From assembly GCF_003015185.1 (NCBI RefSeq), contig NZ_CP027860.1, forward strand, positions 3,772,501 to 3,836,500: a DNA stretch of 64,000 bases. The letters run 5' to 3'. Shown here one piece after another: positions 5,405 to 46,919 of this stretch. Position 1 is the stretch's first letter; each line of letters opens with the position of its first letter. The notes beneath the pieces are model-generated. The model saw only the letters and a program-made list of their open reading frames with translations, made no database searches and had not been told where the DNA came from. This DNA comes from Ahniella affigens (lineage in GTDB: Bacteria > Pseudomonadota > Gammaproteobacteria > Xanthomonadales > Ahniellaceae). The translations under genes were made by a program, and so were the position numbers.

Positions 5405-7720
5405 TCAAAAGGTGTAGTTCAGACTGATGCGGTAGCCGCGACCGGGCCGGGTGAACCGATCGAGCACCGTGCTCGATGCCGCCAACGCGGGCAAGTCGGC
5501 CCAATCCCAGTATTGGCGATCAGTGATATTCGTGGCAGCCACGTCGATCGAGAATGCGCTGCCTATAGGAATCGACGCATAAGCATCCAACGTCGCATAG
5601 CCCGGCGTCGCAAAAGCTGCCGATCCTTGGGAATCGATTGCGGCGAGCCGCTTTTTGCGCGCCGCCAAATTGCTGACCAACTCGAACTGCATCCCGCCTT
5701 GGTCGTAATGCAGCCCGATCACGCCACGCAGCGGATCGACGCTGTTCAACGGCACGTCATCGGTCAAGTCATCGCCGTGCGCAAACGCGGCGGATGCGAG
5801 TACGGCCCAACCATCGGCGCCCAGCGCATCGAGATACCAGCGGCCCTGGATCTCGGCGCCACGAATCCGAACCTCGTCGATGTTCTGCGACTGGAACACC
5901 AGGAGGCCCGTGTTCGAATCGACGCCCAATGAGCGCAGGCTTTCGATAAAGTCGTCGTACTGATTATCGAAGACCGAGAACGTGATGCTGGCATCGTCGC
6001 CAATCCACTTCAGCCCGACTTCGATGCCAAGGCTGGATTCGGGTTTCAAGTCCGGATTCGGAATGGCCGTGTAGCCAGACTGCACGTTGGTAAATCCAAA
6101 GTTCACGTCGTTGTACGGCGGCGCGCGGAATCCGGCAGCCACTTGCACGTAACTCGACCATTCATCGCTGAACTGCCACAACGCGCCAAGCCTCGGCGAC
6201 CATTGCGCGTGGTTCAGCGCCACCGGCGTGATGCCCGGGTTGTCGGCCGCAAAGATGGCATCCGGCTTTGGCGTCAAGCTGAAATGATCGAAGCGGACGC
6301 CCGGCGTTAGTTGCAAGCGGCCCTCGGCGAACGCGATCTGATCTTGGACGAACACCGCCCACTCGCGTGTGTCCGATTTCGGAAAGTCGCGTACCGGGAA
6401 CACATCGGGAAAGATGGTGCTGCTGATCGCACCGGTCGTCAGGTTGATACTCCGACCATCGCGCAGTCCGGCAATTCGACCCTCCTGAAGACTGGCGCCA
6501 AGCGTGACCTGATGATCGGCGCCCGCTGTTTCAATGGTTCGCTTGCCCAGCCAGTCGAGTCCCAACGTACGCTGGTCGAATTGGAACAAGCGCTCGCGAC
6601 GCGTCGGCGACACGACATTGCCGGCAATCACGGTGCCACGCGTCTCGAATGTTTCCTGTTCCGTCCGACTATCTTGATAGTAGGCACGCAGCAACGATTC
6701 TTCGAGCAGCGCGCCCGGCAATGCCGTCCATTCCATGCTGACGCGCTCGCGCCATTGCCGATCTTCGGCGTCCATATCCTGGGTCAGCACAGTCTGGCCA
6801 AACACGGTTTGCGGTCCTTGCTGGGACAGCACTTCGGTATCGGTTTGCAGGTCAACGCGGTCGACGATCAGGCTCAATCGGTGTTGCGCGTTCGCCTGAT
6901 AGATGAGCTTGGCGAGCACGCCTTGGCGTTCTTGGTCTTGAGAATTGGGTGCCGTGCGAGTGCGATCGGCCGTGTCCACCTCGCCTTGATTCTCGCGCTC
7001 GCCGCCTTCTTGTCGGTTGATCTGCGCGAGCATGGACCAATCGCCTGACTGCCCCGCCCACCACGCGTTTCCGCCATAGCTGTCGTCGTCGCTGCTCGCG
7101 TAGGTGCGCGCCGCGGCTCGCGTCGCCTGATCGCTCAGCAGGTCTTCGGGGTCCAGCGTGGTGTACGTCACGACACCACCAATCGCATCGGAGCCATAAA
7201 GCGCACTCGCACTGCCACGATAGAGCTCGATTCGTTTCAACAAGCTCGGATCAATGAAGTCGCGGCCAGCGCTGGAGAAGCTGCCAATCGCAAAGCTGTC
7301 GGACAACTCAACGCCATCGACTTGCTGACGGACGCGATTGCCACCCAGGCCACGAATCCGTACGTCACCAATGCCAAAGCGGCCGCTGCCCTGGCTGACC
7401 GACACACCGGGAACATAGCGCAGTGCGTCTTTGAGATCGCGGGCTTGGCGTCGCGATAGATCCACCGCGTCGATCGCAACCGCGCTGTCGGCACGCTCTG
7501 AGCTACTCGCCGCGCTCAAGGAGCCAACCACGGTCACCGGGTCCAAGACCCGCGCATTCGGCGCAGCCGTCGGTTTGTCGCTGCGATCGGTTGGTTGCGA
7601 CGTTGATGCGGTCGCTTCGGACGTCGCTGCAGGCGCGCCGTCCTGCGCCAGAGCGCTTGCAACCGGCCAGAATGCGAGGCTGATCGCTAGGACCAAAGGG
7701 GATGTCTTGTATCGCTGCAT
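5405..7720 (-). CDS. TonB-dependent heme/hemoglobin receptor
   Basis: Outer-membrane gated porin importing heme or iron-protein cargo using TonB energy. 771 residues, typical length. Signal peptide at 1-25 (ends SALA-QDG), then a TonB-box-like VTVVGS, a plug domain (DALRYVPGVSVSQGSGRFG, VRIRGLGGNRV, LYGSDAIGG) and a 22-strand-type barrel ending in the aromatic C-terminus GYRISLNYTF. The FRAPPYND motif followed by NPDLKPESS corresponds to the FRAP/NPNL region of heme receptors. GGAGTGATTC precedes the ATG. hemP and a Fur-like site lie upstream, and the HemS-like and DUF6607-like genes follow. Whether the cargo is free heme, hemoglobin or transferrin cannot be decided here. Confidence 0.9.
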   Translation of the reverse strand: MQRYKTSPLVLAISLAFWPVASALAQDGAPAATSEATASTSQPTDRSDKPTAAPNARVLDPVTVVGSLSAASSSERADSAVAIDAVDLSRRQARDLKDALRYVPGVSVSQGSGRFGIGDVRIRGLGGNRVRQQVDGVELSDSFAIGSFSSAGRDFIDPSLLKRIELYRGSASALYGSDAIGGVVTYTTLDPEDLLSDQATRAAARTYASSDDDSYGGNAWWAGQSGDWSMLAQINRQEGGERENQGEVDTADRTRTAPNSQDQERQGVLAKLIYQANAQHRLSLIVDRVDLQTDTEVLSQQGPQTVFGQTVLTQDMDAEDRQWRERVSMEWTALPGALLEESLLRAYYQDSRTEQETFETRGTVIAGNVVSPTRRERLFQFDQRTLGLDWLGKRTIETAGADHQVTLGASLQEGRIAGLRDGRSINLTTGAISSTIFPDVFPVRDFPKSDTREWAVFVQDQIAFAEGRLQLTPGVRFDHFSLTPKPDAIFAADNPGITPVALNHAQWSPRLGALWQFSDEWSSYVQVAAGFRAPPYNDVNFGFTNVQSGYTAIPNPDLKPESSLGIEVGLKWIGDDASITFSVFDNQYDDFIESLRSLGVDSNTGLLVFQSQNIDEVRIRGAEIQGRWYLDALGADGWAVLASAAFAHGDDLTDDVPLNSVDPLRGVIGLHYDQGGMQFELVSNLAARKKRLAAIDSQGSAAFATPGYATLDAYASIPIGSAFSIDVAATNITDRQYWDWADLPALAASSTVLDRFTRPGRGYRISLNYTF

Positions 7721-15260: not shown

Positions 15261-15436
15261 AGACCACTCCCTGCCAATGACGCCCAAATTGGACAATCGC
15301 TATGCTGCCATAGTTTGCGGGGCTGGGTGAGACTGATGCTGCGTGAACATGGTACTCAGTGAACGTGACGCATCGTGAACTCGCTGCACGAATGATTGCG
15401 CGCCGCCAGATTGCCTGGACCCAGGACCAAGTCCGA

Positions 15437-16946
15437 GGTGACGAGAGGTGAATTGGAAATCCTTGGGGAACCGCTCCTTTCTAACATCTGAAGCAACAGT
15501 TTTGCCGCGACGGACACTCTCGCGATTCGTCGCCCCGGACTTGATCCGGGGCGGGGTTCAAGCTCGCGGCGAGCTGACCCATCGCGTGCGCTCAACATCG
15601 CCTCTGTGCGACTGCAAGAACTTCAAACCCACCCCGGATCAAGTCCGGGGTGACGAGAGGTGGATTCGAACTCCTTGGGAAACCGCTCCTTCCTGGAGTC
15701 TGAAGCGACGATTTTGCCGCGACGGACACTCTCGCGATTCGTCGCCCCGGACTTGATCCGGGGCGGGGTTCAAGCTCGCGGCGAGCTGACCCATCGCGTG
15801 CGCTCAACATCGCCTCTGTGCGACTGCAAGAACTTCAAACCCACCCCGGATCAAGTCCGGGGTGACGAGAGGTGAATTGGAAATCCTTGGGGAACCACTC
15901 CTTTCTAACGTCTGAAGCAACAGTTTAGCCGCGACGGACATTCTCGCGATTCGTCGCCCCGGACTTGATCCGGGGCGGGGTTCAAGCTCGCGGCGAGCTG
16001 ACCCATCGCGTGCGCTCAACATCGCCTCTGTGCGACTGCAAGAACCTCAAACCCACCCCGGATCAAGTCCGGGGTGACGAGAGGTGAATTGGAAATCCTT
16101 GGGGAACCACTCCTTTCTAACGTCTGAAGCAACAGTTTAGCCGCGACGGACATTCTCGCGATTCGTCGCCCCGGACTTGATCCGGGGCGGGGTTCAAGCT
16201 CGCGGCGAGCTGACCCATCGCGTGCGCTCAACATCGCCTCTGTGCGACTGCAAGAACCTCAAACCCACCCCGGATCAAGTCCGGGGTGACGAGAGGTGGA
16301 TTCGAACTCCTTGGGAAACCGCTCCTTCCTGGATTCTGAAGCAACGATTTTGCCGCGACGGATACTCTCACGATTCGTCGCCTCGGACTTGATCCGGGGC
16401 GGGGTTCACGCTCGCGGCAAGCTGACCCAACGCTTGCGCTCACTATCGCCTGTGTGCGACTGCAAGAACTTCAAACCCACCCCGGATCAAGTCCGAGGTG
16501 ACGAGAGGTGAATTGGAAATCCTTGGGGAACCACTCCTTTCTAACATCTGAAGCAACAGTTTTGCCGCGACGGACACTCTCGCGATTCGTCGCCCCGGAC
16601 TTGATCCGGGGCGGGGTTCACGCTCGCGGCAAGCTGACCCAACGCTTGCGCTCAAGATCGCCACTGTGCGACTGCAAGAACTTCAAACCCACCCCGGATC
16701 AAGTCCGGGGTGACGAGAGGTGGATTCGAACTCCTTGGGAAACTGCTCCTTCCTGGATTCTGAAGCAACGATTTTGCCGCGACGGATATTCTCGCGATTC
16801 GTCGCCCCGGACTTGATCCGGGGCGGGGTTCAAGCTCGCGGCGAGCTGACCCATCGCGTGCGCTCAACATCGCCTCTGTACGACTGCAAGAACCTCAAAC
16901 CCACCCCGGATCAAGTCCGGGGTGACGAGAGGTGGATTGGAACTCC
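15437..16946. repeat. 212-bp tandem repeat array (seven full units)
   Basis: The anchor GGTGACGAGAGGTG recurs at 15437, 15649, 15861, 16073, 16285, 16497, 16709 and 16921, always exactly 212 bp apart. Each unit carries two inverted copies of a CCCCGGACTTGATCCGGGG palindrome and a short AGCTCGCGGCGAGCT hairpin. Two sequence types occur in the order A B A A B A B plus a diverged end; the units from 15861 and 16073 look nearly identical. The unit length is not a multiple of three, so the short open frames on both strands are by-products. Single cores are dispersed elsewhere (23.6, 44.1, 52.1 kb). Confidence 0.95.
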
Positions 16947-17036
16947 GTGGGAGACCGTTCCATTCTTGGGTCTGAAACACCGGCTTTGCCACGACAGACA
17001 CTTTCGCGAAGCGAGGAGGATGCACTCTATACCAGC

Positions 17037-26195: not shown

Positions 26196-27734
26196 TCAAT
26201 CTTGGGTCGTGAGTTCGGCAACGAGGGCGGTGAGGAGGTTCGCGGCGGTAGTGCTGGCGGTGGCGAGCTGCGTTTCAAGCGCGTCCACCAAGGCCATCAG
26301 TTGCGCCACTCTTGCCACGATCCGGCGTTGTTCGGCGAGGGGGGGGATGGGGACGGAAATCGAGAGCCATTTTCCCTTGTTTAGGATAGGGATGGTGGTG
26401 CTGCTGGATTTTTTCCAAGCCGCGTCCTGAAAATACGGCGCACGGACTGCGAGAAGGAGGTATTGAGAATCAACCCACTGAACGGGAGATAGAGAGTTGA
26501 TCTGTTGGTTAAAGGCGCATTCCCGCTCAATCAGGTTGCACTTCCCGATGGTGCCAATGCAGACCATCAATAAACTGCCAGCGGGAGCCAGACGACTTCC
26601 GCTTTGGGCGCCATGCCGAGTCAGGCTTTCGCTGGAGTAGTCGATGCCGTCGGGAAGGATGGCCGCCGGTTTGATAAACGGGATGTCTCCGTTGAAAGCC
26701 TCTTGGTTGTTCTTGCTCGGCGTCGTTCCGGTCTGAGCTGCGCCGAGATCGGCAAGCACCATCCAGCGCCAATGAGCTGGCACGTCAAAAGGTGGCTGGG
26801 CTTCGTCGAGAGACTCTTTTGGTGAGCGCAGTCCGAGGGTGTCCGCGAGCGTTGCAGCAGCTTCGCGGAACTCTTCAATCGGACGGATTTCGCCGTCGTC
26901 GGGTGCGGGTGCCGCCAGCTTTCCACACACTGCAAGGTCTAGGATAGATTTGCGGAGTTCGGCGGGGGGGATGCCGTAGGACGGGTGGAAGAGGAACGAG
27001 AGGTTGGCCGGGGTGGGCGCGTCCGCAAAGCGGGCCAGCGACGCGCGGGCGAGCGCGGCGTGCCGCGTCTCCCGTTCCTGCTGCTGCGCCTCCAGCCGAT
27101 CACACAACGCCATCAACTCATCCACCTTCGCCACGATCCGCTTCTGCTCGGCGAGCGTTGGGAGGGGAATATTGAACTGCTCGATCATTCCCTTCGTTAA
27201 CGCCTCGCGTGTCGCGCCGACTTGGACTTCGTCTATCATTCTTTGAATCACGGGACTGGCTAAGAACCTCGCTAAGAACTGAGTATCGAGTTCTTTGATC
27301 GTGCGGATAATTGCGACGTGCTGGTTGACCCTCGCACCCGCCATTTCCAATGGTGCGGTGGTGACCCGGCCAATCGAAGCACCAGTGATGTTCAGCAGCA
27401 CGTCACCAGGCTGGACGTTAACGTTGGCGAGTTGCTTCGCCTGCTCATCGCTGAGGAAGACAAGTCCCTTGTGCTCGAAGCCTGCAAAGTGGACGTTCAT
27501 CGAGCGAATGAGAGGAATGCCCTCGGTGAAATAGGATTCTCTTCCGCCGGCTGGAGTGGCTCCGCTACCAATCTTGGTTGCGAGCGATTTCAGCGGTTTG
27601 AGCGGCCATTCCGACTCGGCAGGCAACAGCTTTCCCGAAAAGGCGAAGTGCAGCACCAGCTCTCGCATCTTTGCCACCCCATCGGGCGCGTCGGCAAACT
27701 GGTCGAACTTCTCGAAAAACGTTTCCAGCTTCAT
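26196..27734 (-). CDS. hsdS: Type I restriction-modification specificity subunit
   Basis: 512 residues, long enough for two target-recognition domains. TRD1 starts near residue 45 (WPLKPLKSLATKIGSGATP; GIPLIRSMNVHF; GDVLLNITGASIGRV), ending in the IPLPTLAEQKRIVAKVDELM conserved helix. TRD2 follows (HWRWMVLADLGAAQTGTTPS; DIPFIKPAAI; LLMVCIGTIGKC) with a second closing helix, PPLAEQRRIVARVAQLM. Each TRD reads half of a bipartite DNA site for the HsdM/HsdR complex. The start overlaps the hsdM stop (ATGA). Confidence 0.93.
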   Translation of the reverse strand: MKLETFFEKFDQFADAPDGVAKMRELVLHFAFSGKLLPAESEWPLKPLKSLATKIGSGATPAGGRESYFTEGIPLIRSMNVHFAGFEHKGLVFLSDEQAKQLANVNVQPGDVLLNITGASIGRVTTAPLEMAGARVNQHVAIIRTIKELDTQFLARFLASPVIQRMIDEVQVGATREALTKGMIEQFNIPLPTLAEQKRIVAKVDELMALCDRLEAQQQERETRHAALARASLARFADAPTPANLSFLFHPSYGIPPAELRKSILDLAVCGKLAAPAPDDGEIRPIEEFREAAATLADTLGLRSPKESLDEAQPPFDVPAHWRWMVLADLGAAQTGTTPSKNNQEAFNGDIPFIKPAAILPDGIDYSSESLTRHGAQSGSRLAPAGSLLMVCIGTIGKCNLIERECAFNQQINSLSPVQWVDSQYLLLAVRAPYFQDAAWKKSSSTTIPILNKGKWLSISVPIPPLAEQRRIVARVAQLMALVDALETQLATASTTAANLLTALVAELTTQD

Positions 27735-29206
27735 TCAACAATCCCGGCGGTGGCCGTGAGAGCATGGTGGAGTTCCTGTTTCAACGCAGCGCGGGTCGCG
27801 GCGATCTGGGCGAGGAGTTTTTCGTATTCGGGCAGGAGGTGGTCCACGTCGCCGGGGCCCGTGTCGGCGTTGTGCGGGTTCTTGAGGTCGAGGTTGAAGT
27901 TGCCGGACTTGATCGTGTCGATAGAGACGCACCAAGCCTGCTCGTTTTCCACGCGGGATCTAAAGCCGTCCATTTCCTCACCCCACCAGGCGCGCTCGGC
28001 ATCGAACTCCTCGATGCGGATGGGTTTGCCCTTGTTGTAGCTCTTGGCGCCGGGCGGATACGGGTGCTCGTAGTACCAGACGTGGGTGGTGGGCGCGCCC
28101 TTGGTGAAGAACAGGAGGTTGGTGCGGATGCCGGTGTAAGGATTGAACACGCCGTTGGGCAGGCGGACGATGGTGTGGAGGTTGCACTCGGTGAGGAGGG
28201 CTTCCTTGATGCGGGTCTTGACGCCTTCGCCAAAGAGCGTGCCGTCGGGCAACACGAGGCCGGCGCGGCCGCCGGGCTTGAGCAGCTTCATCAGCAGCAC
28301 GAGGAAGAGGTCGGCGGTCTCGCGGGTGCGGAATTCGGCGGGGAAGTTGGACTCGATGCCGTCTTCCTCCATGCCGCCGAAGGGTGGGTTGGTGACGATG
28401 ACGTCCACGCGCTCCTTCGGGCCCCAGTCGCGTAGCGGGCGCGCCAGCGTGTTGTCGTGACGGACGTTGGAAGGGACGTCGATGCTGTGGAGCATGAGGT
28501 TGGTCATGCACAGGACGTGCGGCAAGTGCTTCTTCTCGATGCCGGCGAAGCAGTCCTGGATGATGCGCTCGTCGGCCTCGGTCTTCGCCTGCTTGCGCAG
28601 ATGCTCGATGGCGCAGACGAGGAAGCCGCCGGTTCCGCAGGCGGGATCGAGGATGGTTTCGCCGAGGCGCGGATTGACTTGCTCGACGATGAACTGGGTG
28701 ACGGCGCGCGGGGTGTAGAACTCGCCGGCATTGCCCGCGGACTGAAGGTCTTTGAGGAGCTTTTCGTAGATGTCGCCGAACATGTGGCGATCATCGGAGG
28801 CGTTGAAGTCGATGCCGTTGATCTTGTTGATGACCTGGCGCATCAACGTGCCGTTCTTCATGTAGTTGTTGGCATCCTCAAACGCGGTGCGGATGAGCGT
28901 GGTGATGCGGTCGCCGCCGCCGGAGAGGGACTTGAGCTTGGGCAGGAGGGTGTTGTTGATGAAGTCGAGTAGGGCGTCGCCGGTGATGCCTTCCTCATCT
29001 TTGGCCCAGTTCGACCAGCGCAGATGCTGCGGGAGCGGGGATTTGTAGCGATCGCGGAGGAGTTCCATCTCCAGCTCGCGGTCGTCGAAAATTTTTAGGA
29101 AAAACATCCAGCCGAGCTGTTCGAGGCGTTGGGCGTCGCCGTAGGTGCCGGCGTCCTTGCGCATGATGTCCTGGATGGTTTTGACGAGGTTGGATACGTT
29201 GGGCAT
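27731..29206 (-). CDS. hsdM: Type I restriction-modification DNA methyltransferase subunit
   Basis: 491 residues, full length. N-terminal helical domain (MPNVSNLVKTIQDIMRKDAG), GEFYTPR, SAM-binding motif I as ILDPACGTGGFL, and catalytic motif IV as VIVTNPPFGG; C-terminal helical part. It N6-methylates adenine in the site selected by HsdS and forms the core of the restriction complex. It starts three bases after the hsdR stop and overlaps hsdS. Compared with the truncated hsdM at 31.6-32.4 kb it belongs to a clearly different subtype. Confidence 0.95.
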   Translation of the reverse strand: MPNVSNLVKTIQDIMRKDAGTYGDAQRLEQLGWMFFLKIFDDRELEMELLRDRYKSPLPQHLRWSNWAKDEEGITGDALLDFINNTLLPKLKSLSGGGDRITTLIRTAFEDANNYMKNGTLMRQVINKINGIDFNASDDRHMFGDIYEKLLKDLQSAGNAGEFYTPRAVTQFIVEQVNPRLGETILDPACGTGGFLVCAIEHLRKQAKTEADERIIQDCFAGIEKKHLPHVLCMTNLMLHSIDVPSNVRHDNTLARPLRDWGPKERVDVIVTNPPFGGMEEDGIESNFPAEFRTRETADLFLVLLMKLLKPGGRAGLVLPDGTLFGEGVKTRIKEALLTECNLHTIVRLPNGVFNPYTGIRTNLLFFTKGAPTTHVWYYEHPYPPGAKSYNKGKPIRIEEFDAERAWWGEEMDGFRSRVENEQAWCVSIDTIKSGNFNLDLKNPHNADTGPGDVDHLLPEYEKLLAQIAATRAALKQELHHALTATAGIVE

Positions 29207-29209
29207 GGA

Positions 29210-31573
29210 TCAGGCAGCTTTCAGATAAAGAGCGGTTTCGAGTTCGCGGATGGCGGCGAGGTAGGCGGGGCGGCCGCCGAAGAGTTTGACGATTTCCACG
29301 GGGGTGCCGTGAGTGGTAAGCGGATCCACTTTGAGGATTTCCAGCGACTCGACGCTGGCAATGCCGTTGTCGGCGTATTTCTGAAGCAGGGCATCAAGAA
29401 CGGCCCGGGCCTTATCCCCATACTTGGCGAAGACATTGCGCTTCTTCACTCCTTCAGCGCGTTCCTTCCGCGTCAGTGGCGGGGCATCGAAGGCGATATG
29501 GCAGATGAGGTCGAAGGCATCGTACTCGCGGCCAGCTTGCTCTGCGAGTTCGTCGAGGAAGACGCCCTTGGCGGCGAGTTCTTCGAGCACGGCCTGCTTC
29601 TTCTCGGCGTCGTTCCAGGTGGTGAGAAATTCGTCGAGGGTGGCATAGGCCGCGCGGACAGTTTTGCGCGTGAAATCGGTGAGCGACTCGGTGATGAGGC
29701 GGCCGTTTTCGTCAAGATATTGGACGCGCTCCACAGAGACGCTTACGGGTACGTTGTTGACGACGTAACGCCTCGGCGGCTCGGGACCTTCTCCGCCGGG
29801 ATCTGGACCGGGACCGGGTGGCAGGGGCGGCTCCGGGGATTCACCACCCGGAGGCGGATCTTCGGGCGGCACCGGCGGATCTTCCGGGCCGGGTTCATAA
29901 ACCTGCACCGGGTCACCGTCAAAGGTCGGGTCGGCGAACAAGGCAGTCGCCCCGCGAAAATCCATGATGGTGAAGAAGAACTTGCCGTAGTCCTCGTTGA
30001 TGCGCGTGCCGCGACCGATGATCTGCTTAAACTCGGTCATCGAGGCGATGCGCTTGTCGAGGACAATGAGGTGGCAGGTCTGGGCATCCACGCCGGTGCT
30101 CATGAGTCGCGAGGTGCAGGCGACGACCGGATAGGTGGACTCCGGGTCGATGAAGTTGTCGAGTTGGGCCTTGCCTTCATCGTCGTCGCCGGTGATGCGC
30201 ATGACGTACTTATTGTTGGCGGCGGCGAGGTCGGGATTGGCATTCACCATGGCCTGCCTCATGCGCTCAGCGTGGTCCGTGGTCTCGCAGAAAATGATGG
30301 TCTTGGCGAAACGGTTGGTGGTGCGGAGGAACTCGGAGACCTTGGTGGCCACCAGTTCGGTGCGCTTTTCAAGGATGAGGTTCTTGTCGAAGTCGCGCAG
30401 GTTGTATTCGCGGTCTTCGATGAGGTTGCCGTATTTGTCGACCTGCCCAAGCTCAGGACGCCAACCGAGGATGTCCTTGTCGAGGCCGATGCGGACGACT
30501 TTGTAGGGTGCGAGGAAACCGTCGGAAATGCCCTGCCTCAGCGAGTAGGTGTAAATGGGGTCGCCAAAGTATTCGATGTTCGAGACGTCCCTCGTCTCCT
30601 TGGGCGTGGCGGTGAGGCCGATCTGGGTGGCGGACGTGAAGTATTCAAGGACTTGCCGCCAGCGCGCATCATCGGCGGCGCTGCCGCGATGACACTCGTC
30701 CACGATCACGAGGTCGAAGAACTCCGGGGAGAACTGCTTGTAGATGTTCTGGTCCTCCTCCGTGCCGGTCACGGCCTGGTAGAGGCAGAGATAAATCTCG
30801 AACGACTTGTCGACGGTGCGGTTCGTGATCTTCGTCATCGCGGTTCCGAACGGCTTAAAGTCGTTGGTCTTCGTCTGGTCGGCGAGGATGTTGCGATCGA
30901 CCAGGAAGAGAATGCGCTTCTTCGCGCCCGACTTCCACAGCCGCCAAATGATCTGGAAGGCGGTGTAGGTTTTGCCGGTGCCAGTCGCCATCACGAGGAG
31001 GATGCGGTTCTCACCACGGGCGATGGCCTCTACCGTGCGGTTGATAGCGATGAGTTGGTAATAGCGCGGCGCCTTCCGGGAGCCGTCGTCGTAGTAGTCC
31101 TGAGTGGTGACTTTGCGCTGGCCCTCGGTCCACCCTTTGGCGGCGCAGTAGCGGGACCAGAGCTCCTCGGGCGTAGGGAACTGATCGAGCGGGATTTCAC
31201 GGGTGACGGTGCCGCTGGTGGCGGTGCGGTCGTGCTCCAGAAAGGCGTCGCCGTTGGAGCTAAAGGCGAAGGGCACGTCGAGAATTTCGGCGTATTCGAG
31301 CGCCTGCTGCATGCCCTCCCCGACACCGTGGTTGTTATCCTTGGCCTCAATGACCGCGATGGGCAGGTTCGGTTTGTAGTAAAGCAGGTAGTCCGCTTTT
31401 TTGGCTTCGCCACGACGAACGGTTTTCCCACGGACAACGACGCGGCCTTTGGTGAAATAGGCTTCCTCCCGGACTTGGGTCATGAGATTCCAGCCCGCAC
31501 CCTCCGGGCCGCAGAGTGCCGGAGTGATGAACTTGGACCGGATGTCCGTTTCGGAGAGAGTTTTCTTGTTCAT
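29210..31573 (-). CDS. hsdR: Type I restriction endonuclease subunit, EcoEI-like
   Basis: About 787 residues. N-terminal nuclease domain with [20 protein letters not shown], the Asp...Glu-x-Lys pattern of PD-(D/E)XK enzymes. SF2 motor motifs: [12 protein letters not shown] (Walker A), [10 protein letters not shown] (DECH box), LTATPKE, and [12 protein letters not shown]. EcoEI-like C-terminal helical domain. It cuts unmethylated DNA after ATP-driven translocation. The real start is [10 protein letters not shown]; the longer open frame overlaps the truncated hsdM out of frame. The ATG overlaps the stop of that truncated gene (ATGA). Odd feature: a ~45-residue linker made largely of Pro, Gly and Glu (around residues 520-565) before the C-terminal domain. 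Confidence 0.94.
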
Positions 31574-32427
31574 GCTGCCCGGAGGTTGGGATGGAGCGGG
31601 CGGCGGAAGGTGTCGGCGTTTTCGGGGCCGAAGTCGGCCTCGATGCCGCGCAGGGCGAGGTTCATGATGGCGAGGCGGCGCGTGGTGGGGTTGCTCTCCT
31701 GGCCGTAGATGCTGATGTCGCCGAGCTGGCCACCGTGGGATTCGACGAATTTTTCCGACTGCACGAACATGCCGCCGGAGCCGCAGGCGGGGTCGTAGAT
31801 GCGCCCTTTGTAGGGGGCGAGCATCTCGACGAGGAGCCGCACGACGCACGACGGGGTGTAAAACTGGCCGCCGTTCTTGCCCTCGGCGCTGGCGAACTGG
31901 GTGAGGAAGTATTCGAAGACGCGGCCGAGGAGATCCTTCGACCGGCTGGCGACATCGGCGAGCTGGATGGAGCCGATGAGGTCGATCAGTTCGCCGAGGC
32001 GGTGTTTGTCGAGATCGGCGCGGCCGTAGTTTTTGTTCAGCGCGCCTTTGAGGCGGGGGTTGTCGCGTTCGAGGGCAACCATCGCATCATCCACGTCCTT
32101 GCCGATGCTCGGGAGCTTGGCGTTGGCCTGAAGGTGAGCCCAGCGGGCGTCCTTGGGCACCCAGAAGACATTGGCGGCGAGGTATTCGTCCTTGTCCTCG
32201 GGATTGGCCCCGGCAAAATCGCCCTGACCGGCCACGAGCTTGGCGTGGTGCTCGTCGAAGGTGTCGGAGATGTATTTAAGGAAGATGAGGCCAAGGACGA
32301 CGTGCTTGTATTCCGCCGCGTCCATGTTGTTGCGCAGCTTGTCGGCTGCGAGCCAGAGCTTGGCCTCGAAGCCGAGATTGGCTGAGGAATCTTTGTTGGT
32401 GGTCGGTGACTTCTTCTTGGCTGCCAT
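31570..32427 (-). pseudogene. Truncated hsdM of a second type I system
   Basis: 285 residues instead of ~500. The start [10 protein letters not shown] is followed by a normal HsdM N-terminal domain ([36 protein letters not shown]), [11 protein letters not shown] and motif [13 protein letters not shown]. The frame ends at [17 protein letters not shown] then stop, just where relatives would run into the NPPF catalytic motif. So the SAM site is present but catalytic motif IV and the C-terminal half are lost. The stop overlaps the ATG of the intact EcoEI-like hsdR. It could still be translated and seed translation of the cassette, but cannot methylate alone. Confidence 0.85.
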
Positions 32428-33282
32428 CGAAATTCCTGTTCCATTTGGGTTTCGGTGAATTCCGGCATCGACTGGACCCTGTGGGCTCAGACGCGTGCCG
32501 GAAGGCCGAAACACTGATACTTATTGTTCGGACGACCTGCCGAGGTTTCCCCCACGCCCACTCTTGCTTAAGTCAGCGATTGCGATGCCTCCCTAACCCC
32601 GTCATCGGTTGACCTGCCTACCATAGCGCATGTCCAATGTCACCGACACAACTGGCGCTAACAGCTTTTCCATCCTCGACCAGCTCCGCTGCCATCTTCC
32701 GCACGCGGCACCGCTCCTCATGGATCGCGAGAGGCCAATAGCCCACCGCCCGCTCTGGGGCTAAGAGCCAGGCCCCACACGCCACGAATTGCCGTATCTC
32801 TCGGCTGATGAGGCCGCGGTCTGTGACGAGCTCCGCTTCAATCGCCTTCAAGCCAAGTTGCGACTGGAGCAAGAATGGGTGGGATTCGGCTGGCTGAGCG
32901 CCCGGATTGAGGAGTTCGCGTCCGAGTCACGCGTAGCGCGGTAGCTGTGTCCGCCGGGCCGACAAAGACGATGGCGAGATCGGAGCACGAGTCTTATGAG
33001 GCAGCGCACTTTCAGTTCACGGTGTATTCCCCGACTTAAGAGTGAGCATTCAGCTCCCCAGATCTGCAGCATGGGTCCGATCGATGCCGTCATCCATTGA
33101 TGCGGCAGATCAGAAGCGCCTCTCAGACGTATACTGGGTGGATAATCGCAGCCTTACCCGGCGATTTTTGAAAGCGCTATGATGGCTTTCGGGTAAGCTA
33201 GCGTTCTGCGAATCCCAAACCCCATGTCAATGTTCGCGATACTGCGGGCGAAGAAGAATAATGAATCGAGGCACTGATTTCG
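32428..33282. other. Accessory-region gap with possible coding debris
   Basis: 855 bp between divergently transcribed genes, so promoters for the restriction operon (leftward) and the HEPN-LOTUS gene (rightward) should lie here. An open plus frame at 32765-32944 reads LPYLSADEAAVCDELR and WVGFGWLSARIEEFASES before a stop. It looks protein-like but has no start and no family I recognise. Competing short minus-strand frames exist. I see no integrase or attachment site. Confidence 0.4.
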
Positions 33283-40405: not shown

Positions 40406-40540
40406 GTTTTTTTGATCCGTGCGACCCGGAGGGCCGGCTGAGACGCACAGTGTACCGGCTTGGTTCTGACCATTCACGGCCGGGGAAAGGGCGGGATTGG
40501 GGGTGAAATGTTAGGTGGATGTTTGTTGCGTGCTGGTTTG

Positions 40541-40788
40541 TCGCAAGTAGCCCTCTCCCCGGCGCGCTTCCACTCGCGTGGAGGAGGGAGTTGGTGGGCT
40601 GGTCGCAAGTAGCCCTCTCCCCAGCCCTCTCCCACTCGCGTGGGAGAGGGAGTTGGTGGGCTGGTCGCAAGTAGCCCTCTCCCCAGCCCTCTCCCACTCG
40701 CGTGGGAGAGGGAGTTGGTAAGTTTGTCGCAAGTAGCCCGCTCCCCGGCCCGCTTCCACTCGCGTGGGAGTTCAGCCGCCCCTTTGGT
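40541..40788. repeat. 62-bp tandem hairpin repeats (four units)
   Basis: TCGCAAGTAGCCC recurs at 40541, 40603, 40665 and 40727, exactly 62 bp apart. Each unit contains CTCCCACTCGCGTGGGAG or a variant, a perfect hairpin. The same unit head is found again at 40850 and 41042. Units two and three are almost identical. Not a CRISPR array: the whole period is repeated, with no unique spacers. Confidence 0.9.
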
Positions 40789-43064: not shown

Positions 43065-43253
43065 GACGCGATCATGCGCCAGCGCGCGATGCTTCTGCAA
43101 ACCGAAACTGAGGAACGAATCCATCCCCTGCTTCGGCTAACAACGACAGCCAGGCATTGCGCCCCCATAGTCTCGCGCAGACGCCAACAAATGTTTTCGC
43201 GTCGCATTGTTCGGGCGCGCTATGGTCGGGAGACAGGGAAACCAGGAGGCGTG

Positions 43254-44072
43254 ATGCGGCATCGTATTCTCATCGTTGGCACGATTGTCCTTGGCTGCAC
43301 GGTTGTCGCAAGCGTGGTCGAAGCGAGCGCCTTGGCCGGCAGTCCTCAGCATCTTGTGCTGACGACCTCAATGTCGGTTCCATCCGATACGGAAGACCAG
43401 ACGATCTACAAAGTGATCGTCAACCTCGAAGAGCAATTCTCGATCTGGCCTGCTTATAAAGACTTGCCGGCGGGCTGGTCGGAAGCGGGGAAGTCTGGCA
43501 CCAAAGCGGAATGCCTCGAGTACATCGAAAGTGTTTGGACCGATATGCGACCCATGAGCCTGCGCAAGGCGAAGGCGGCGCAGGGACTGGAACAGCCTAA
43601 GCCCACAACGGAAGCGCCGCAGGAGAAGGCGTCTGAGGCTTCCGAGCCAGAGGGTGACGCTGCTGCCGAGGAGGCGCCAGAAGACGCTGGGACGCCGGAC
43701 GAATCCGGCAGTTCGCCACCGCCGCCGCCGCCACCACCGCCGCCTCCAGCAGAGAGCGATGGTGCTGATTCGTTTGCGACCGAAGAGGCGCCGGCCGATG
43801 CTGAGGCCATAGACGACTCAGAGGATGCCGCGCTCGAAGAAAGCAACGGTGAACCTGAGTTTGACGACGAAGCCTCGGTTCCGGAGATTTCTGAAGACGG
43901 AGATAATTCGGAGTCGTATGACGATGAGGGTGACTCAGAGTCCAATGAAGACGACCTTGATGCGGCGTCTTACGAGGACGAAGGTGATTCCGAGTCCTTT
44001 GATGACGAAGGCGAGTCCGAATCCGATGATGACTTCGATGACTCGGCGTCGTACGAAGACGATGGTGCGTGA
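43254..44072 (+). CDS. Exported MbtH-like protein with polyproline hinge and acidic repeat tail
   Basis: 272 residues; AGGAGG precedes the ATG, so the start is firm. Residues 1-28 look like a signal peptide ([20 protein letters not shown], cleavage near SALA-GS). Residues 46-107 are MbtH-like: [33 protein letters not shown] and [11 protein letters not shown], with the three hallmark Trp at 65, 75 and 95. Then an Ala/Glu/Pro region, 11 consecutive Pro (155-165), and ~107 residues of Asp/Glu/Ser with tandem [10 protein letters not shown]-like units. Known MbtH proteins are ~70-residue cytosolic partners of NRPS adenylation domains. An exported one with an acidic tail is not something I know. 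No NRPS gene is in the window. The 11 prolines should need EF-P type help to translate. Confidence 0.85.
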
Positions 44073-44089: not shown

Positions 44090-44126
44090 AAACCCACCCC
44101 GGTTGAAGTCCGGGGTGAGTTTCAAG
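44090..44126. repeat. Dispersed palindromic core before mutS
   Basis: ACCCCGGTTGAAGTCCGGGG with flanks AAACCC and TGAGTTTCAAGCT, a slightly diverged copy of the core found in the 15.4-16.9 kb array. It sits just after the acidic MbtH-like gene and may end its transcript. Confidence 0.8.
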
Positions 44127-44318: not shown

Positions 44319-46919
44319 GTGAACAGCAAAACCACCACCACCGAACCGTTTGCCGAACACACGCCGTTGATGCGGCAGTTTTTCCGCGCCAAGTCGGAGC
44401 ATCCGGACTTGTTGTTGTTCTTTCGCATGGGCGACTTTTACGAGTTGTTCTATGACGACGCCCGCAAGGCGGCGCGGCTCTTGGATGTCACGCTGACGCA
44501 GCGCGGCTCGTCGGCAGGTCAGCCTATTCCAATGGCCGGCGTGCCGGTGCATGCGTTGGAGCCGTATCTCGCGAAACTCGTCAAGCTCGGCGAGTCCGTC
44601 GCAATTTGCGAGCAGATTGGCGACCCGGCCACGAGCAAGGGGCTGGTCGAGCGCAAAGTCGTGCGCGTGCTGACCCCGGGCACGATTACCGATGAGGCGT
44701 TGCTCGATGAGCGCCGCGATTTGTGGCTGGCCGCCCTCACGGCGCGGAACGGCCGCTATGGCTTGGCCTACGCGGATCTCGCGGGCGGCCGCTTTGTTTT
44801 GGCCGAGCACGAGAGCGAGACCGCGCTGCTCGCCGAACTGGCGCGTTTGAACCCAGCAGAATTGCTGCTCGACGAATCAGCCGAATTGCCGTTCAACAAG
44901 CTCGGTGCCGCGCGCAAGCGGCCACCTTGGCATTTCGATCGCGATGCCGCCGAGCGCGCCCTCACCGAATTCTTCAAAACACGCGATCTGAAAGGCTTCG
45001 GCTGTGCCGATCAGCATTATGCGTTGGCCGCAGCCGGTGCGCTGCTGACGTACATCAAAGAGACCCAGCGTACGCAGCTGCCGCATTTCTCGCGGCTGTC
45101 GGTGGAATCGGCCGACGAGACGATCGCGATGGACGCGGCCACGCGGCGAAATCTGGAGATTGATACGCACGCGAGTGGTCGCTTGCAGCACACGCTGTTC
45201 GGCGTGGTCGATTCGGCCGTGAGCCCAATGGGCGCGCGCCTGCTGCGTCGTTGGCTGCATCGCCCGCTGCGCACGCATGCCACGTTGCGCGCACGCCAAG
45301 TCGCGATTCAGTGTCTGATCGACCGCGGGGTACTCGAACCGCTGCGTGATCTGCTGCGCGGCATCGGCGATACCGAGCGCATTCTCGCCCGCGTGGCGCT
45401 GCGCTCGGCGCGTCCGCGCGATCTTTCGGGGCTCCGTACCGCGCTGAATCGCGCGCCTGATTTCGCGACGCTCCTCGCCGATCTGCAATGTCCGCGTTTG
45501 GACGAACTCTGCGGACAACTGGGTGATCATGCTGAGCTCGCCGATTGGTTGAATCGCGCACTCGTCGATGAGCCACCGGTGCTTGCCCGCGATGGTGGTG
45601 TGATCCGCACGGGCTTTGACGCGGAGCTCGATGAGCTTCGGGAACTGTCAATCAATGCCGATGGGTTTTTGATCGATCTCGAAGCCCGCGAGCGCGCCAG
45701 CACTGGTATCAGCACACTGCGCGTCGCGTACAACCGCGTGCACGGCTACTACATCGAGATCACGAACACGCATGCCGACAAGGTGCCGACGCACTACACG
45801 CGGCGGCAAACGGTCAAGGGCGCCGAGCGTTACATCACCGAAGAGCTGAAGCTATTCGAGGACAAAGTCCTGTCGGCGCGCGAACGCTCGTTGATGCGCG
45901 AAAAGGCACTACTGGAAGGCGTGTTCGATCGCTTGGTCAACGAGATCGAAGCCTTGAAGCAAGCCAGCGCCGCGCTTGCCGAACTGGATGTACTGGGCGC
46001 ACTCGCCGAACGTGCTGAGCGTTTGAACTGGGCCTGCCCGGTACTGAGTGATGAACCGGGCATCGAAATTCGCCGCGGCCGTCACCCGGTGGTTGAAGCG
46101 GTGCGCACCGACCCGTTTGAGCCCAACGATACGGCGTTGAGCCCAGACCGGCGTATGCTGATCATCACCGGCCCAAACATGGGCGGTAAGAGCACGTATA
46201 TGCGCCAAACGTGCCTGATCGTGCTGCTCGCATCGATCGGCAGTTTTGTACCGGCCGATTCGCTGCGCCTGGGGCCGATTGATCGCATGTTCACGCGCAT
46301 TGGCTCGGGCGATGATCTCGCCGCGGGTCAATCGACCTTCATGGTCGAGATGAGCGAGACGGCGAACATTCTGCACAACGCGACTGAGCAAAGTCTCGTG
46401 TTAATGGACGAAGTCGGTCGCGGCACGTCCACCTACGATGGTCTGGCGCTCGCGCATGCCGCGGCAGTCCAATTGGCGACCGTCAATCGCGCCTATACGC
46501 TGTTTGCTACGCACTATTTCGAATTGACGGCGCTCGCGGGCGAGTACGAGGGCGTCGCGAATGTCCATCTTGATGCCGTCGAACATGGCGAGGCCTTGGT
46601 GTTCTTGCACGCGGTCAAGGATGGCCCGGCGGATCGGAGCTTTGGTCTCGCTGTCGCGGCACTGGCTGGCGTGCCGCGTCCGGTGATTCAGGCGGCGCGC
46701 GACAAGCTGCGTTCGCTCGAATCGAAGCGCGATCACGAGCAGGCGGCGCAGAGTTTTGTCGAGGCGACGCGGATTGATTCCAGCGCGCCGTCCCCGCATC
46801 AGTTCTCGCTCTTTGATCGGACGCCGCCCGCGCTCGAAGCGTTGAAGGCGGTGGATCCTGATTCATTGAGCCCGCGCGAGGCGCTTGAAGCGCTGTATCG
46901 CTTGAAGACGATGCTGTGA
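44319..46919 (+). CDS. mutS: DNA mismatch repair protein MutS
   Basis: 866 residues, full length. Recognises mispairs and small loops and recruits MutL. N-terminal mismatch domain with [15 protein letters not shown] (the Phe-x-Glu wedge lies here), clamp and lever helices, then the ABC-type ATPase: [15 protein letters not shown] (Walker A), [16 protein letters not shown] (signature region), [15 protein letters not shown] (Walker B/D-loop) and FATHYFELT. The start is a GTG at 44319; an ATG five bases earlier runs into a stop at once. Conserved [17 protein letters not shown] begins 14 residues in, as expected. Confidence 0.96.

Follow-up and report, generated by a model that had tools for sequence, protein, structure and literature searches.

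The stretch of DNA analysed here, 64 kb in length and hereafter called the window, carries on its forward strand an open reading frame at 43254-44072, stop codon included, whose translation is a protein of 272 amino acids, P0001. This protein can be described as a chain of a predicted signal peptide, an MbtH domain, a run of prolines and a long acidic tail (Table 1). MbtH proteins are partners of NRPS adenylation domains, and the known members of the family, which are small and either stand-alone or fused to an NRPS, work with cytosolic enzymes. On the minus strand, segment 42348-43124 encodes a protein of 258 amino acids that is membrane-like by eye and has no Pfam match, and mutS is located beyond the MbtH gene, at 44319-46919. 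A simple scan detected neither a promoter-like site nor a terminator-like one adjoining the ends of the gene.

Elsewhere in the window, a tandem array at 15419-17009 is made of 7.5 copies of a 212 bp unit that includes a CCCCGG...CCGGGG palindrome, and a similar palindrome is located beyond the MbtH gene, at about 44095-44117. A second array, at 40540-40770, has 3.7 copies of a 62 bp unit. A Type I restriction region occupies 26196-32514 of the minus strand and comprises HsdS (26196-27734), a full HsdM (27731-29206), an HsdR-like frame (29210-31849) and a second HsdM frame (31570-32514, minus), in which the methylase match spans positions 2-121 of 311 only.

Table 1 Coordinates of the P0001 gene, its parts, and the three other signal-peptide MbtH genes.
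Feature	Position	Strand	Basis or remark
Shine-Dalgarno sequence AGGAGG	43244..43249	+	sequence; six-base match, ATG 4 bases on
P0001 gene: predicted signal peptide, MbtH, Pro11, acidic tail	43254..44072	+	272 aa; translation
Predicted Sec signal peptide, about residues 1-28	43254..43337	+	own rule; coding-like codon use
Internal in-frame ATG, residue 40, usual start of cytosolic MbtH	43371..43373	+	three-base Shine-Dalgarno match only
MbtH domain, residues 45-107	43386..43574	+	Pfam PF03621, phmmer, AlphaFold, Foldseek
Linker rich in Glu, Ala and Pro	43575..43715	+	sequence
Run of 11 prolines, residues 155-165	43716..43748	+	codons mixed CCA/CCG/CCT
Acidic tail rich in Asp, Glu and Ser, residues 166-272	43749..44069	+	model of low confidence, probably disordered
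Acidic 10-residue-like repeat units	43914..44024	+	sequence
G018 signal-peptide MbtH	L071 5798-6100 (core L025)		no long tail
G042 signal-peptide MbtH	L073 7183-7449 (core L030)		no long tail
G028 signal-peptide MbtH	L045 3041-3646		Pro/Ala-rich, acidic tail

Translation start and signal peptide

The N-terminus of P0001 consists of an n-region, MRHR, followed by residues 5-22, which are uncharged and mostly hydrophobic, and candidate cleavage sites are found after residue 26 or 28. Signal peptides were scored by a rule of our own, not by SignalP, at a level of 1.8 for MbtH cores and of 2.5 for the starts in the window. Among the 2918 open ATG, GTG and TTG starts on both strands of the window, 37 pass this rule at level 2.5 and 23 have a six-base Shine-Dalgarno match, while both are found together at two starts, 43254 and 63066. 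The frame that runs from 63066 on the forward strand, MPLRIALFVFLFLLLPLAHAAERVERRVEV..., is secreted-looking.

The 117 bases that separate the upstream ATG from the internal ATG at 43371 are coding-like in the frame of P0001 only, with a score of 0.081 that was reached by 3 of 2000 random sequences. The 120 bases upstream of 43254 have a negative coding score in all six frames. Because of the AGGAGG, the signal-peptide rule, the coding-like segment and the weak internal ATG, 43254 was taken as the start. At this start codon P0001 has the n-, h- and c-regions of a Sec signal, as judged by our rule and the start-site tests. The initial annotation had placed a signal peptide behind a strong AGGAGG, and the six-base match, the rule and the coding-like segment all agree with it; the true start could have lain after the hydrophobic segment, but the evidence favours the upstream one. 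From these sequence features, P0001 is probably exported.

The MbtH domain

Residues 42-92 of P0001 correspond to the Pfam MbtH profile PF03621 (E value 7.6e-21; 73.7 bits, cut-off 27). The three tryptophans are W65, W75 and W95, and WTDMRP corresponds to residues 95-100. By sequence, the closest solved structures found with phmmer are the PA2412 entries 2gpf and 2pst, with E values of about 3e-22. The AlphaFold model, made from an alignment of 18 sequences, places the MbtH fold between residues 45 and 109, with a three-stranded sheet (residues 52-57, 62-66 and 75-82) plus a helix (residues 84-95). The block-mean pLDDT is 93-96 over residues 51-90, but low in the signal peptide and over the greater part of the tail; the overall mean is 59.1 and the pTM 0.32. 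The top 26 PDB rows of Foldseek are all MbtH proteins or MbtH-containing NRPS structures, the best of which is 2pst with an E value of 1.5e-6, and 15 rows have E values up to 0.001. In NCBIfam, no MbtH model matched any of the four signal-peptide proteins described below, and P0001 had one weak match, to GltJ (12.7 bits; cut-off 450). The MbtH-like domain that the initial annotation had recognised by its three tryptophans and WTDMRP is thus recovered by the profile search, and structure prediction, which might have given no such fold, does give it. It is virtually certain, from sequence and model together, that P0001 carries an MbtH domain, and by sequence and predicted fold the protein is a member of PF03621.

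The part of PMC7593251 available to us gives an MbtH-like motif, VxxNxExQxSLWP-x5-PxGW-x12-L-x6-WTDxRPxSL. P0001 keeps 19 of the 19 residues checked, with Leu and Ile taken as alike at one place, so its domain may have kept the ability to bind an adenylation domain. To judge by profile, sequence and predicted fold, this domain is the same as that of PA2412 from Pseudomonas aeruginosa (PDB 2pst, 2gpf and 5ja2), and in the Foldseek matches the identity is 60-63% over about 60 columns. Unlike the known MbtH proteins, P0001 has a predicted signal peptide, a hinge of 11 prolines and an acidic tail, and it has no NRPS neighbour in the window. A functional NRPS MbtH protein is small, with no export signal or extra regions, and is commonly, though not universally, encoded in an NRPS cluster; P0001 departs from this description in both respects. 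Because its predicted location and its neighbourhood differ, P0001 is only putative as a functional NRPS MbtH-like protein.

The C-terminal region of P0001 beyond the domain has 165 residues. In segment 165-272, Asp and Glu account for 50 of 108 residues and Ser for 17 of 108, and the acidic tail is free of Lys and Arg. The repeat units occur at residues 221, 239 and 248, and a DNA repeat is located at 43977-44033, inside the region that encodes the tail. Synonymous codon preference is absent from the tail-coding DNA (-0.046). The hinge of 11 prolines and the Asp/Glu/Ser-rich tail of about 107 residues with tandem units were likewise described correctly at the outset.

Other signal-peptide MbtH proteins

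In a sample of the order, 43 of 398 genomes had an MbtH match, 42 of them above the cut-off. A set of 137 distinct MbtH cores was assembled from the matches listed, with 62 from the order, the family and the genome of the window, 9 from the class, 46 from the phylum, 19 from genome_contigs and 1 from a viral contig. Left out of this set are the matches of G807, G356 (L046) and G741 (L088), which fall below the cut-off, together with a second, divergent MbtH-like frame of G697 and all duplicates of identical cores. Five of the 137 cores passed the signal-peptide rule at level 1.8, those of the window, of genomes G018, G042 and G028, and of locus L062. The last of these was set aside; its normal ATG has a Shine-Dalgarno match of five bases. 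The other four come from one order and from four different families.

The N-termini of the three additional proteins are MSNKRSVTAALAVLAGASTQAVAQ- in G018, MQKSMVLVFMLLALVAGSLQA- in G042 and MPKRWWWVLALVGLLTCGNAAA- in G028. The signal-peptide scores are 2.77 for the window, 2.17 for G018, 3.29 for G042 and 2.40 for G028, so the G018 and G028 proteins would miss the stricter level of 2.5. The Shine-Dalgarno matches, of 6, 4, 3 and 0 bases in the same order, are strong in the window only, and the start signals in the other three genomes are therefore weaker. No ATG or GTG is present at the normal MbtH start in 3 of the 137 cores, namely G018 (L025), G028 (L045) and L067, a short frame. In G042 (L030), the sole ATG at the normal start falls within the hydrophobic stretch. 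The PMC7593251 motif, as given in the available part of that paper, is intact in G018 (all 19 checked residues, Leu and Ile alike), has one change in G042 and has three in G028, one of which affects the interface Ser.

The G028 protein has the same order of parts as P0001, with a predicted signal peptide, an MbtH domain, a Pro/Ala-rich stretch and an acidic tail. More than 40 residues follow DMRP in five of the 137 cores, and these extensions are acidic only in P0001 and G028 (37% and 32% Asp plus Glu, versus 12-14%). The G028 tail has SFADDEAPADAE opposite a 12-residue stretch of P0001, and the alignment score of the two tails, 118, was reached by 12 of 1000 shuffles, which is suggestive of homology. 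A tree of MbtH domains, based on 60 columns and poorly resolved, requires four changes for the four signal-peptide forms, as many as shuffled labels do. A single origin of the four is not rejected (AU p 0.28), and a pair formed by the window and G028 is acceptable (p 0.53). The tree does not bring the four domains together, so that a role inherited from a common ancestor would be conjectural.

When 397 genomes of the order were searched with the G028 query, the matching genomes were as before and no further signal peptide and tail were found in one open frame. A search of genome_contigs with short peptide patterns gave 19 loci; each has an MbtH core, and none has a credible signal peptide or a tail of acidic character. 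In plasmids, 304 records matched by tblastn. Viral contigs had no match to the P0001 query, and the G018 query found one ordinary MbtH of 71 amino acids (L118 1989-2204), which is located on an IMG/VR contig beside genes that are transporter-like and peptidase-like by eye; this contig may be non-viral. The initial annotation knew of no described family with the layout of P0001. The G028 protein is a second one with the same order of parts, and in the titles and abstract beginnings covered by our literature search no exported MbtH was found.

Several other MbtH proteins had unusual arrangements. L076, L077 and L051 have, by eye, an insert of about 17-19 residues between GW and the Cys-Leu region. 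L065, from Amycolatopsis, appears by eye to have a carrier-like region at the C-terminus of the MbtH that starts at 6001, and Pfam identifies only MbtH in 6001-6309. In G306, L047 2411-3031 has a C-terminal extension of 137 amino acids of no assigned kind, and in L160 (G1026) MbtH is fused to an adenylation-like region.

Relation to NRPS genes

The genome of the window, G000, has 6.12 Mb in two contigs and a second MbtH, L001, at C1:2083497-2083643. L001 has the same domain as P0001. Unlike P0001, it has 70 amino acids, no signal peptide and no tail, and it lies inside the NRPS region at 2.04-2.13 Mb, which holds all 19 condensation-domain matches of G000. No orthologue of P0001 was found by protein search in the 9 other genomes of the family that were examined. 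Condensation-domain matches number 16 in G002, 3 in G018, 5 in G028, 7 in G019 and 0 in G042; those of G018 and G028 are located elsewhere in the genome from the signal-peptide genes. In G042, a single contig of 3.7 Mb that is 99% complete, the one MbtH present is the signal-peptide form.

NRPS-like sequence was sought in a wide scan around each of the four signal-peptide genes and, for comparison, at four control loci. All four controls were positive, and no NRPS-like sequence was found around the signal-peptide genes in the whole 64-kb window, the 61-kb contig of G018, some 55 kb of G042 and some 34 kb of G028. Within about 1.5 kb, an NRPS-like match is present for 0 of the 4 signal-peptide genes versus 57 of the 133 other cores; restricted to full flanks, the numbers are 0 of 4 versus 39 of 86, a difference that is not significant (Fisher p 0.13).

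In G018 (contig C8, L071 229-6100), the genes that come after the signal-peptide MbtH gene on its own strand encode a tryptophan halogenase, a carbamoyltransferase and a 717-residue protein without Pfam match, and a MatE transporter gene is divergent from them. To judge from its gene content, this set resembles a small biosynthetic operon that has no NRPS. A general link to tryptophan halogenase genes, considered because of this neighbourhood, was rejected; the halogenase matches of G000, G028 and G042 are on other contigs or hundreds of kb away.

Discussion

The domain, the tail, the start site and the recurrence of the signal-peptide form in three other genomes can be read in the sequences themselves. 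For P0001 we infer the following course of events. Translation would begin at 43254, and the Sec signal peptide would take the chain across the inner membrane, where it would probably be cut after residue 26 or 28. The MbtH domain would then fold outside the cytoplasm, on its long flexible acidic tail, and the face that binds adenylation domains would be offered instead to an extracytoplasmic protein or peptide. The proline hinge and the strongly negative tail may serve solubility, extension, or the holding of cations or of cationic parts of the envelope. We give a probability of about 45% to export followed by an extracytoplasmic, NRPS-independent role of some kind. That P0001 is a binding or chaperone module outside the cytoplasm is our best guess at its role, though a rather doubtful one. 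The initial annotation had proposed that the fold was reused after export. This idea is made stronger by the signal-peptide MbtH proteins of three more genomes and by G042, which has no condensation-domain match, while for P0001 itself re-use is what we infer. The intact motif in P0001 and G018, the NRPSs in the genome of the window and the internal ATG at 43371 stand against it.

These same observations would fit an ordinary orphan MbtH in the cytosol, serving the NRPSs of G000 in trans, whose translation starts, perhaps additionally, at 43371 and whose upstream part is a little-used extension. Every checked motif residue is intact, NRPS genes are present at 2.04-2.13 Mb, and residue 40 is the usual MbtH start position. 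Orphan MbtH proteins acting on distant NRPSs have been described in the literature, for example MXAN_3118, for which the accessible part of PMC7593251 reports interaction with seven NRPSs whose genes lie elsewhere in the same genome. P0001, like MXAN_3118, is encoded outside any NRPS cluster; unlike for P0001, that part of the paper makes no mention of a signal peptide. We consider this explanation unlikely. The upstream start combines a strong signal peptide with a Shine-Dalgarno match of six bases, against three bases at the internal ATG; the segment before 43371 is coding-like; and an MbtH gene, L001, is already present in the NRPS region. Moreover, the G018, G042 and G028 proteins are hard to read in the same manner, and G042 has no condensation-domain match.

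A recent chimera or relic, in which a horizontally gained MbtH came to lie between a signal-peptide start and a repeat-rich frame, would be exported or degraded with nothing selected. This origin appears improbable for a frame of 272 codons that is open without decay and has an intact motif and a strong translation start, and which is one of four signal-peptide cases across four families. It would nevertheless account for the patchy distribution (the protein search gave 0 of the 9 other genomes of the family), for the DNA repeats and absent synonymous codon preference (-0.046) of the tail, and for a domain up to 67-68% identical to the MbtH of distant bacteria.

Positive residues before a hydrophobic segment and acidic residues after it favour an N-in/C-out orientation, as MRHR and the acidic residues of P0001 do, and VLGC (Cys15) resembles a lipobox; an uncleaved anchor or lipoprotein signal that ties the domain to the periplasmic side of the membrane is still quite improbable, as the mostly hydrophobic residues run on past Cys15 to end in AXA-like sites (residues 24-28), the signal regions of G018 and G042 have no Cys, and in G028 the Cys follows LLT, a poor lipobox.

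Beyond export and an extracytoplasmic role for P0001 alone, the four proteins could tentatively be regarded as a recurrent class of Sec-exported proteins with the MbtH fold, extracytoplasmic and NRPS-free, in which the adenylation-binding face is turned to a new partner, and in which the acidic-tailed architecture occurs in at least two families. If this is true, the MbtH fold has a second life, and these proteins would offer a clean system for finding what the MbtH face binds besides adenylation domains. A PF03621 protein should not automatically be taken as an NRPS accessory protein, and the putatively exported MbtH would be a variant seen in four families of one order.
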